Virus record (IMG/VR): IMGVR_UViG_3300037264_000502
Location: 1-20,022 of that record
DNA length: 20,022 bases
DNA from: a virus
Reading direction: 5' to 3' (one strand)
Under the pieces are notes generated by a model. The model made no database searches and was not told the origin of the DNA. It was given only the letters and a program-made list of their open reading frames with translations. A program made the position numbers and the translations under genes. Shown one piece after another: positions 472-19,741 of the stretch; position 1 is the first letter of the stretch, and every line of letters starts with the position of its first letter.

Positions 472-1056
472 ATGCGACCCAACCGCGCGAAGCATCCGAC
501 GTCGTACGACCACGACAAGCCGTGGAACCGCCAACCCTGCGACACAGACGCCCGCTGGCGGGCTTTTCTCGCCTTCCGTGACCAACCGGGCGTGCGCACG
601 CTCCGAGGCGCTCAAGAGGCGCTCACGACCGCCGACAAGGTGTTCGACATGCGCACGCTCGAACGCTGGACGTCGGCGTTTGCATGGCCCGAGAGGTGCG
701 CCGCCTTCGACCGCTACCTCGACGACGCTCGTGTCGCCGTGCTCGTCGACGTGCTCGAAGAGAGCACACGCGAGACCGCCGCCCGCCATGCGTCGATCGC
801 CCGAGACGCAATCGAGGCGGCGCGCTCGGTTGTCGACAGTTGGCTCGAACGGCTCGGGCGCGGCGAGCGTCTTGACGGTTGGTCGCCTAACGACGTGCGA
901 GGGATGCTCAAAGACATGATCACGCTCGAACGCCTCGTGCGCGGCGAGGCAACCGAGCGCGTCGAGCACGGCATAGGCTTCGACTTGTCGAGGCTCTCGC
1001 TCGACGAGATCGAGACCATGCGAGCGATCGAAGTCAAAGCCGGCGTGGTAGACTAG
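472..1056 (+). CDS. terS: probable terminase small subunit
   Basis: This 194-residue, mostly helical protein starts with a basic tail and then PWNRQP. It continues through a helix-turn-helix-like stretch (TLRGAQEAL...RTLERWTSAFAWPERCAAFD, about residues 40-80) to a long helical C-terminal part containing LERLVRGEAT. From memory, this arrangement (W-x-RQP, then a WS-x-R-x-x-W-x-ERA-like DNA-binding region, then a helical oligomerisation part) is typical of a small-terminase-like family in phages and prophages. Small terminases bind the packaging site and hand DNA to the large subunit. I chose ATG 472; GTG 403 or ATG 415 would add codons with unlike third-base usage. ATG 415 does have a weak GGA upstream. 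The gene stands alone, 4.9 kb from terL, between the GTCTCA cluster and a terminator. Other DNA-binding roles remain possible. Confidence 0.62.
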   Translation: MRPNRAKHPTSYDHDKPWNRQPCDTDARWRAFLAFRDQPGVRTLRGAQEALTTADKVFDMRTLERWTSAFAWPERCAAFDRYLDDARVAVLVDVLEESTRETAARHASIARDAIEAARSVVDSWLERLGRGERLDGWSPNDVRGMLKDMITLERLVRGEATERVEHGIGFDLSRLSLDEIETMRAIEVKAGVVD

Positions 1057-1083
1057 CGTCGTTGGGTCTCTCGTGAGTCCGAC

Positions 1084-1120
1084 GAGCCCGGCGCCTTCCA
1101 AGGCGCCGGGCTCTTTTCGT
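1084..1120 (+). terminator. rho-independent terminator after terS
   Basis: A perfect 14-bp inverted repeat (GAGCCCGGCGCCTT at 1084-1097, complement at 1100-1113) is followed directly by TTTT and CGTT. It lies 28 bp after the terS stop codon and matches an intrinsic terminator, separating terS transcription from the regulatory region that follows. Confidence 0.9.
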
Positions 1121-1143
1121 TGGCGCCTTGCAAGGGTCGGGCC

Positions 1144-17124: not shown

Positions 17125-17288
17125 GGGGAGAATGGTCGATCTGGCGGGTCGCGACTTCGCCGCACTTCCGAGATTCTCTCGCCGAGATCGAAAGCAGTTG
17201 GAGCCTCGACGATCTGTATGATGCTCACGACGTGATCGAAACGCTCGAAGAGCTAGACCGGCGGCGAGGCGAGAGCCTGAGAAAGTAA
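16639..17288 (+). CDS. tail assembly chaperone, -1 frameshift fusion
   Basis: Joining 16639-17019 to 17019-17288 gives a 216-residue fusion: 127 shared residues plus 89 from the -1 frame. The -1 part contains DIPDHLRGEWSIWRVATSPHF and SSWSLDDLYDAHDVIETLEELDRR, the helical module seen at the end of GT-type chaperones in many tailed phages. It has no start codon or ribosome-binding site suited to separate expression. The fusion ends nine bases before the tape measure start, the canonical place for a G/GT pair. The gene is easily missed because it is split between two frames. Confidence 0.85.
17013..17019 (+). promoter_or_regulatory. -1 programmed frameshift slippery heptamer T TTT TTA
   Basis: The zero-frame codons are AGT TTT TTA GGC, so the heptamer T TTT TTA is in the correct X XXY YYZ register for -1 slippage. 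A stem-loop (CGGGCGA 17041-17047 with TCGCCCG 17058-17064) lies 21 bases downstream; an alternative pairing of CGGGCG (17024-17029) with 17059-17064 is also possible and starts closer to the slip site. Either could stimulate pausing. Confidence 0.85.
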
Positions 17289-17297
17289 ACGCACGCA

Positions 17298-19025
17298 ATG
17301 GCACTTCGAGAGGTTATCGCAAGGTTCGGCTTTGAGTTTGATCAAGCTGGATTGAAGCGCGCACAGTCTGGGATCGCTGGCGTCGTCGGTTCACTCGGAA
17401 CCTTGGGCGTCGCACTCGGCGCCGGCGTGATCGTGCGCGGCTTGGCCAACTTCGTTAGTGACATCGTAAAGGCCGGCGACGAGCTAGGCGACACCGCGGC
17501 AAAGCTCGGCGTGTCGGCAGAAGCGTTGCAGCGTTGGCGCACTGCCGTAGACTTCGCGGGCGGTTCTGCCGACTCGTTGAACCAAGCTCTTTTCACTGTG
17601 CAAAAGAGCGCCTTCGAGGCGGCGAAAGGAACAGGCGACGCCGCCGACACGTTCAAGGCGTTGGGCGTTTCGGTCAAGGATCAAAGCGGCAACCTCAAAG
17701 ACACTGAGACGCTCTTGCGCGAGTCTGCGCACGCTCTCGCCGCGGTCGAGAACGGGACCGAGCGCACAGCGCTTGCGTCCAAGATCTTCGGCAAGGCTGC
17801 AAAGGAACTGACACCGCTTCTCGCCGAGGGGGAAGCGGGGTTGCAAAAGTACCTTGAAGCGATTGACGAGGCGGGCGGCGGTCTCAGTAGTGAGTTGATC
17901 GCTAACGCCGACGAGGCTGATAAAGCCTTCAAGCGTTTCGATCTCGCGTTGCTCTCGGTCAAGAGCACGATCGCCGTCGCGATTCTGCCGGCGATCTCTC
18001 AGATGGCCACATGGCTCGGTCGGGGGATCTCCGAGATCTCGAAGTTCGCCAAGTCGACGGGCGCGATTAAGTCGTTGCTCGTTGCGCTCGGGCTCGTGCT
18101 CGGCAAGCTGGCGATCGCGAAGTTCGGCGCGTCGTTGCTCTCGCTCGCTCGCGCCGCCGTCGTGCCCTTGCTCAAGTTCGCGCTCTTGTTTCTTGTCATC
18201 GACGACTTGATCGCGCTCTTCGAAGGTCGCGGCTCTGTGATCGGTACGTTCATCGACAAGATCTTCGGCGCGGGTTCTGCGGCGGCGGTCGTAAACGGGA
18301 TCAAAGCGATCGGCGCGGCGATCTCGGGTCTCTTGCAAACGGGAGACTTCGCCGCGTTCGACAAGGCGCTCGAAGACATCTTCGGCCCGATCGGATCCGA
18401 CATCGTGGGCGATGTCGTGTTCACGTTCTCGATGATCGGAGAAGAGATCGACGCCGCTCTCGACGGTATAGGCCAAGCATGGGATGAGTTTTGGAGCGGG
18501 CTCGGCGACTCAATCGTTTCGTCGGCGATCGGTATCACGAACGACGTGATTCAACTCGCGAGCGGTATTGTCGACGGGCTCGTGAACGGGATCAAAGACG
18601 GTTCGACGGCGGTGATCGACGCGCTCGGCTCGGTAGTGACAGGTGCAATTGACGCGGCAAAAAAGAAACTCGGGATCGGTTCGCCGTCGAAGGTCGCGGC
18701 GCGGCAAGTCGGCGGGCCGTTCATTGAAGGGATCGGCGTCGGCGCGCTCGACGCCGCCAGGAACGTTGCTCGCATGACCGCTAACGCCGCGCGCATCGCG
18801 ACGAGCACGTCGGCACCGACTTCGATCTCGGCGCCCGTGCGAGGCGGCACGGGCGCGGCAATGGGCGGCGTCGTGTTCAAGAGTGACATCGCGTTGTCGG
18901 TGTCGGGCGGCTCGGCGAGCGATCCGCAGATCTCGAAGTTGCGGCAAGGCGTGCGCGACGAGTTGCGAGACAATCGCCGAGCAACGCTCGACGCACTTCA
19001 CCAAGTGATCGAGGCGCCAGCGTGA
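17298..19025 (+). CDS. tape measure protein
   Basis: This 575-residue protein has the long Ala/Gly/hydrophobic and helical composition of tape measures. The start MALREVIARFGFEFDQAGLK is like other members. Two hydrophobic stretches (about 31-57 and 259-309) could interact with the host membrane on ejection. A C-terminal GIGSPSKVAARQVGGPFIEGIGVGAL (about 457-482) is the common GSPS/IGxGAL motif of tape measures. At the usual 0.15 nm per residue, the tail would be about 85 nm (inference). Its GTG-coupled neighbour overlaps its end by GTGA. Ribosome-binding site is weak. Confidence 0.9.
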   Translation: MALREVIARFGFEFDQAGLKRAQSGIAGVVGSLGTLGVALGAGVIVRGLANFVSDIVKAGDELGDTAAKLGVSAEALQRWRTAVDFAGGSADSLNQALFTVQKSAFEAAKGTGDAADTFKALGVSVKDQSGNLKDTETLLRESAHALAAVENGTERTALASKIFGKAAKELTPLLAEGEAGLQKYLEAIDEAGGGLSSELIANADEADKAFKRFDLALLSVKSTIAVAILPAISQMATWLGRGISEISKFAKSTGAIKSLLVALGLVLGKLAIAKFGASLLSLARAAVVPLLKFALLFLVIDDLIALFEGRGSVIGTFIDKIFGAGSAAAVVNGIKAIGAAISGLLQTGDFAAFDKALEDIFGPIGSDIVGDVVFTFSMIGEEIDAALDGIGQAWDEFWSGLGDSIVSSAIGITNDVIQLASGIVDGLVNGIKDGSTAVIDALGSVVTGAIDAAKKKLGIGSPSKVAARQVGGPFIEGIGVGALDAARNVARMTANAARIATSTSAPTSISAPVRGGTGAAMGGVVFKSDIALSVSGGSASDPQISKLRQGVRDELRDNRRATLDALHQVIEAPA

Positions 19026-19741
19026 CCGCGTTCATTATTCCCGACGACGACTCTTCGAGGATCATCACGTTTGACGTGATCGAAAGCGAGAATCACGAGA
19101 GCATTGCCGAGATCACGGATCACCCCGTCGAAGTCGGCGTGAGTATCTCCGATCACATTCGCCCGTTACCGGCGCGCTTATCGCTCGTCGCTTACACGAC
19201 CAACCAACCGATCACCGTGAACCCGTTCACGCAACGCGGCGAGGTGAAGTCGTTCAAGTTCGAAGTACCGAAGTATTCGATCCCCGTCGAACCGACGCCC
19301 GGCGCGCTCTATCGCGCGGGCATTCAAGCGCTCGGTTCGCTCTTCGGCGACTCGGATCGATCGGTGAGCATTCTCGCGTTCGACTCGCCGTTTAACGCGA
19401 TCTGGGAAACTTACGAAGTGTTGCGCGAGTTTCAAGAGAACGGCATGTTGTTGCAGATCCTAACCGGGATCCGATCTTACGAAGACATGGTGATCGAGCG
19501 AGTCGCCGCACCTCGAACCGCCGGCGACTCGGGCGTCGCGTTCGCGATCGATGTTCGACAATTGCGCGTCGTGTCTTCGGGGCAAGTCGCCGCGCCGCCC
19601 GTGCCCGCCGACGACGTGCCCGGCGGTTCGCCTCTCGCGAACAAGGGCGGGCAAGGTGCGAAGCCGCCGTCGCCCGGCGAAGACGAAGGCAAGGGCGGTT
19701 CGATCGCTTTCAAGTTTTTGAGCGGGCAAGGGTTGCTCTAA
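19022..19741 (+). CDS. Dit-like tail/baseplate protein
   Basis: The 239-residue protein starts at GTG 19022, overlapping the tape measure stop. Its N-terminal half has FDVIESENHESIAEITDHPVEVGVSISDHIRPLPARLSL, matching the Dit-like N-terminal domain of small myovirus tails. EVLREFQENGMLLQILTGIRSYEDMVIERVAAPRT and AFAIDVRQLRVV complete that fold. The C-terminal 50 residues are a flexible Pro/Gly/Lys-rich extension (GGSPLANKGGQGAKPPSPG), a possible linker to the baseplate. Such proteins link tube and baseplate hub. Order agrees: it follows the tape measure and precedes the baseplate plug. Confidence 0.83.
   Translation: MTAFIIPDDDSSRIITFDVIESENHESIAEITDHPVEVGVSISDHIRPLPARLSLVAYTTNQPITVNPFTQRGEVKSFKFEVPKYSIPVEPTPGALYRAGIQALGSLFGDSDRSVSILAFDSPFNAIWETYEVLREFQENGMLLQILTGIRSYEDMVIERVAAPRTAGDSGVAFAIDVRQLRVVSSGQVAAPPVPADDVPGGSPLANKGGQGAKPPSPGEDEGKGGSIAFKFLSGQGLL

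Follow-up and report, generated by a model that had tools for sequence, protein, structure and literature searches.

GATC preference and avoidance of other short words in the DNA of a family of uncultured phages

In cyanobacteria, the GATC-containing palindrome HIP1 (GCGATCGC) and its alternates are over-represented throughout the genome, and GATC methyltransferases are found in the same genomes [Elhai 2015, PMC4390886]. A repair-driven origin has been proposed for these highly iterated palindromes [PMC4390886]. Phages avoid the sites of type II restriction systems, whereas type I and type III sites are not systematically avoided, and GATC is below expectation in 46 of the 46 phages whose hosts encode matching enzymes [Rusinov et al. 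2018, PMC6286503].

The DNA described here, referred to as the window, is an entire uncultured virus record of 20,022 bp (IMGVR_UViG_3300037264_000502). Judged from its predicted genes, it is the head–tail module of a myovirus (terminase subunits, portal, Mu-F-like protein, DUF2213 protein, capsid, sheath and tape measure). The genes and repeats are as follows:

472-1056, plus strand: terminase small subunit (TerS), phrog_6299
1144-1468, no strand: four copies of the palindrome ATAAGG-N4-CCTTAT in the TerS–DUF932 intergenic gap, with 0 expected by chance
1772-2833, plus strand: DUF932 protein, PF06067
3824-4450, minus strand: conserved reading frame, the sole minus-strand gene used
4854-5534, plus strand: putative Dam-like DNA methyltransferase, phrog_111, with an NPPGG motif
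5943-7445, plus strand: terminase large subunit (TerL), profile matches
7442-9178, plus strand: portal protein, profile matches
9165-10043, plus strand: Mu-F-like head morphogenesis protein, profile match
10129-11316, plus strand: DUF2213 protein, profile match
11923-12894, plus strand: major capsid protein, profile matches
14828-16156, plus strand: tail sheath, profile match, with 30 GATC within 1,329 bp
17298-19025, plus strand: tape measure protein, profile match

The product of the minus-strand frame, for which a Pfam search gave no family match, is possibly a lysis protein. The ATAAGG-N4-CCTTAT palindrome is present as one to three exact copies in the relatives L001, L002, L003, L005 and L006, and looks like a conserved operator or another putative protein-binding site. 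Just 3′ of the TerS gene (1083-1121), a GC-rich hairpin followed by a T run was read by eye, and is likely to be an intrinsic terminator.

The tetranucleotide GATC is present 308 times in the window, compared with a mean of 135.8 and a maximum of 162 in dinucleotide shuffles, and with 232 expected from a trinucleotide Markov model (z 11.4, the top z of the 256 tetramers). Within the genes, there are 278 GATC compared with 138 when synonymous codons are shuffled such that the proteins and the codon usage remain fixed (z 18.7, rank 1 of 256 tetramers); the highest count in 300 such shuffles was 166. Thus, neither the codon-shuffled nor the Markov null reproduces the count, and the enrichment through synonymous codon choice claimed in an initial annotation of this DNA is upheld. 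The excess is found in each codon phase (observed versus shuffled: GAT|C, 61 versus 20.6; GA|TC, 11 versus 6.2; G|ATC, 206 versus 111) and also in the intergenic gaps (26 versus a dinucleotide expectation of 11.6, p = 2e-4). As all codon phases, both strands and the intergenic gaps are involved, the preference acts on the DNA itself.

At the level of codons, the third base of fourfold codons in the window is G in 87% of cases before ATC, 29% before ATG and ~47% before other codons starting with A (0.87 versus 0.29 for ATC and ATG, a sharper contrast than in the bacteria, which have ~0.4-0.8 versus 0.5-0.8), and Asp is encoded by GAT in 86% of cases before C but in 11-27% before A, G or T. The last base of the codon is therefore picked to complete GATC and not merely to be G, as the initial annotation had proposed, and this is also true in the 44-46 kb relatives. 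Gly codons in the window as a whole are GGC (273), GGG (86), GGT (67) and GGA (23); before ATC, Gly is nearly always GGG (20 of 22 cases, with GGA and GGT once each), where 21 cases had been counted by hand. Before ATG, the six GGC that had been reported are indeed present, but there are eight cases rather than seven and GGG, said never to be used, occurs once, as does GGT. The distribution of the sites is as follows:

155-20022, no strand: GATC sites (n=308), spread over the whole record at 5-25 per kb, Poisson-spaced
14821-15420, no strand: dense stretch inside the tail sheath gene, with exactly the 15 GATC in 600 bp that had been counted by hand

Spacing between sites is Poisson-like (CV 0.97). 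The flanks are without palindromic extension (CGATCG, 61 versus 57 expected), which limits the favoured word to exactly four bases. An octamer like HIP1 was considered and rejected: GCGATCGC has 6 copies in the window, with no palindromic extension.

The window has relatives among environmental viral contigs, with TerLs 63-90% identical and a largely conserved gene order, including four of 44-47 kb (G001-G004). When the observed GATC count is divided by the count after shuffling (the shuffle ratio), seven family members have values of 1.84-2.46 and are the seven top records of 165 surveyed. The median is 1.12 (maximum 1.63) for 76 distant viral TerL relatives, and 1.26 (maximum 1.57) for 71 bacterial or prophage loci. 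The ratio is weaker in three members of the family: G004 (1.46), L007 (1.20) and the fragment L014 (1.21). Comparison of the window with its 69%-identical relative G003 at conserved fourfold codons revealed that the third base is identical in 93% of cases before ATC and in 29% before A[ACG], which implies that GATC has been maintained through synonymous saturation. This persistence fits a strong equilibrium preference and does not, by itself, separate selection from bias. In G004 and L007, CTAG, which is usually rare in prokaryotes, is enriched ~2-fold, and GCTAGC is the most frequent six-base palindrome in both. The 45.2-kb record of G003 (L103-L105) is probably a complete, circularly permuted genome, because the conserved head module spans the ends of the contig (genes at 142-2223, with the next at 44946-45209).

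The most unusual trait, which was missed in the initial annotation, is that many other words are strongly avoided, which raises GATC further. The family avoids many words, including GGAC, CTCC, GGCC, AAAT, CATC, CAGG and all CAG/CTG, in every codon phase, on both strands and in intergenic gaps, i.e., strand-symmetrically, and many of these words are non-palindromic. The numbers of strongly avoided tetramers among 153 records are 14 in G001, 11 in G003, 11 in G002 and 7 in the window, with a median of 0 elsewhere; family members and one other phage, L155, top this list. Relative to expectation, CAG/CTG is reduced to 0.10-0.23 in G001, G002, G003 and the window, compared with 0.73-0.74 in G004 and G006; its loss extends across all codon phases, with Leu CTG and Gln CAG nearly dropped in favour of CTC/TTG and CAA. 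In G001, GGAC, CTCC, GGCC, AGCT and CATC are almost gone. AAAT/ATTT is at zero in G004 (47,120 bp) and L007 and at nearly zero in G002; G004 has 33 copies of TTTAAA compared with ~4 by Markov estimate, despite its zero AAAT/ATTT. The palindromic site CTCGAG is far below Markov expectation, as is characteristic of restriction-site avoidance (observed/expected: 0/25 in the window, 0/61 in G001, 0/47 in G002). The sets of avoided words vary among family members, and GATC stays on top. Such avoidance suggests heavy restriction pressure, probably from the host or hosts.

A strand-symmetric synonymous model of 136 words places GATC on top in seven of eight family members; in the same model, it ranks 1-4 in several planctomycetes, Kaistia, Methylobacterium, Rhizobium and another GC-rich genome. 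Decomposition of the surplus attributes 1.25-1.33x to the GATC term alone in the family versus 1.16-1.31x in GC-rich comparators, and 1.30-1.93x to the avoidance of other words versus 0.99-1.24x. Thus, the difference between the family and the comparators lies in the avoidance terms, the GATC term not being larger by a wide margin. Because avoiding the one-letter neighbours of GATC can mirror a preference for GATC, both extremes were simulated. A pure GATC preference gave fitted GATC terms of 0.78 for the window, 0.76 for L004 and 0.61 for G006; no preference, with the other terms kept, gave 0.45, 0.38 and 0.36; and the real terms are 0.59, 0.67 and 0.60, respectively. The real terms being between the simulated extremes, the window is a mixture of direct preference and avoidance, two components that simulation separates only in part. 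For G006, with its few avoided words, a direct GATC preference is required.

A TerL profile search of GTDB revealed no close TerL (nearest, ~37% identity over a full-length match), and neither did a search of 392 planctomycetes. A survey of three phyla and one order for CAG-poor genomes placed Planctomycetota nearest, with no genome as extreme as the phages. Planctomycetes with low CAG/CTG share part of the signature, with GATC shuffle ratios up to 1.77, and a CAG-poor planctomycete is a plausible host on these compositional grounds. No bacterial sample attains the higher GATC shuffle ratios of the family. GATC and GGCC are practically absent from two contigs (L211 and L212) of the planctomycete genome G250, suggesting that this lineage has restriction systems for both words.

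The most economical account, to which we assign a probability of about one half, is that a host-like GATC preference has been amplified by the avoidance of competing words. The first layer would be a direct preference for GATC of the kind common in GC-rich bacteria, presumably arising from the mutation, repair or selection regime of the host. That the host bears a GATC signature is suggested by the sampled bacteria rather than by identified hosts. The second layer would be the very strong avoidance of CATC/GATG, AATC/GATT and GACC/GGTC, together with GGAC, CTCC, GGCC, AAAT and CAG/CTG, an avoidance that probably reflects restriction in the host or hosts. This avoidance would strip away the alternatives at synonymous sites, leaving GATC, evidently untargeted, as the permitted choice. 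Matching of a host bias had been named as the alternative to methylation in the initial annotation, and has gained support because in GC-rich bacteria, too, GATC is the top-ranked word or close to it.

A possible, although unlikely, alternative is that the Dam-like protein of the phage or a methyltransferase of the host methylates GATC, and that dense methylated GATC is useful (for shielding, packaging, timing or strand marking) and hence positively selected. The enriched word is the exact four-base Dam site with free flanks, its retention at saturated synonymous divergence between the window and G003 would be expected of selection, and a mainly direct preference for GATC fits both G006 and L004; GC-rich bacteria, however, prefer GATC in the same direction. 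The Dam-like protein lies upstream of TerL in every family member with that region sequenced, and its NPPGG motif and N-terminal CxxC zinc-ribbon-like stretch are conserved in most of the family, NPPGG including G004 and L007. Adenine methyltransferases usually carry an NPP-aromatic motif, and NPPGG is unusual. The annotation as Dam-like holds in so far as the protein matches phrog_111 (E 9.1e-15, residues 36-180), but against Pfam Dam (PF05869) it scores 12.3 bits (E 0.14), below the gathering score of 28.1, and the records of six relatives have no PF05869 match either. Its structure model (pLDDT 56) is too poor for a structure search, and a PDB sequence search gave no convincing relative. 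GATC is a putative target of the protein. No PF00145 cytosine methylase was found in the large relatives or in L155.

The link to methylation is further weakened by G004 and L007, which are weakly enriched despite carrying the same protein and motifs; a correlation between methyltransferase and GATC within the family was rejected as an argument, as there is no contrast between members. In L131, which carries a 40% homologue, GATC is not enriched, and the GATC content of phages with distant homologues spans mild enrichment to near absence. L155, a distant viral contig (listed with L156), has CAG/CTG at 0.13, only 2 GATC in 21 kb and a surplus of CATC, and a search of its 48.6-kb contig for phrog_111 gave no match; this contrast favours a methylation link, but comes from one lineage only. 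We think it rather unlikely that a lineage attacked by many restriction systems lost many words yet built up GATC because the phage methyltransferase renders this word harmless or advantageous. GATC would then be a phage-driven, methylation-linked iterated word, reversing the usual avoidance of GATC by phages, and L155, with no match to the enzyme and hardly any GATC, would be the natural counter-example. A methylation-linked gain of GATC, if real, would counter restriction in the opposite way to the loss of sites.

Less probable still is the absence of any GATC preference, GATC being simply the leftover once the defences of the host forbid its neighbours. The fitted avoidance terms alone account for a rise in GATC of 1.6x for the window and of 1.9x for G001, and a simulation in which the GATC term was removed and the avoidance terms were strengthened by 15% gave 1.86x for the window (observed, 2.2x). 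For G006, which has a shuffle ratio of 1.84 with one strongly avoided word, the same simulation gave only 1.49x, and GATC is on top although the avoided set differs between members. An early reading of the surplus as mostly a by-product of avoidance was weakened by the simulations, which revealed that the GATC term shrinks in the fit and that identifiability is partial. Selection at the level of translation (codon pairs or tRNA) rather than of DNA, with which the location of the majority of sites in codons, at third positions, would agree, was rejected and is highly improbable, as the excess extends to all three phases and to intergenic DNA, and the avoided words are equally phase-free.

The present case illustrates how strongly the short-word composition of a phage can be shaped, at synonymous as well as intergenic sites. 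It also illustrates that the gain of one word may partly reflect the loss of its neighbours, which is a trap for claims of positive selection on motifs. The family can serve as a test bed: its members conserve gene order but differ in their avoided words, and these sets might preserve a record of the restriction systems of uncultured hosts.

As with HIP1, a GATC-containing word is over-represented genome-wide, and the putative GATC specificity of the Dam-like protein would be a further parallel; unlike HIP1, which is a palindrome of six to eight bases, the word has four bases with free flanks and a modest fold excess, and is found in a phage. Deschavanne and Radman reportedly described counterselection of GATC in enterobacteriophages; GATC in the present phages is also far from expectation, but in the opposite direction. 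The complete loss of CTCGAG and the strong loss of GGCC in the family resemble the restriction-site avoidance surveyed by Rusinov et al., whereas many of its avoided words are non-palindromic (GGAC, CTCC, CAGG, AAAT) and GATC is raised. The preference for GATC, TCGA and ATCG, common to the family and GC-rich bacteria, is as expected if phages match the genome signature of their hosts, but, unlike plain signature matching, the higher GATC values of the family exceed those of all bacterial samples examined. Thus, the present case differs from both HIP1 and phage restriction-site avoidance.
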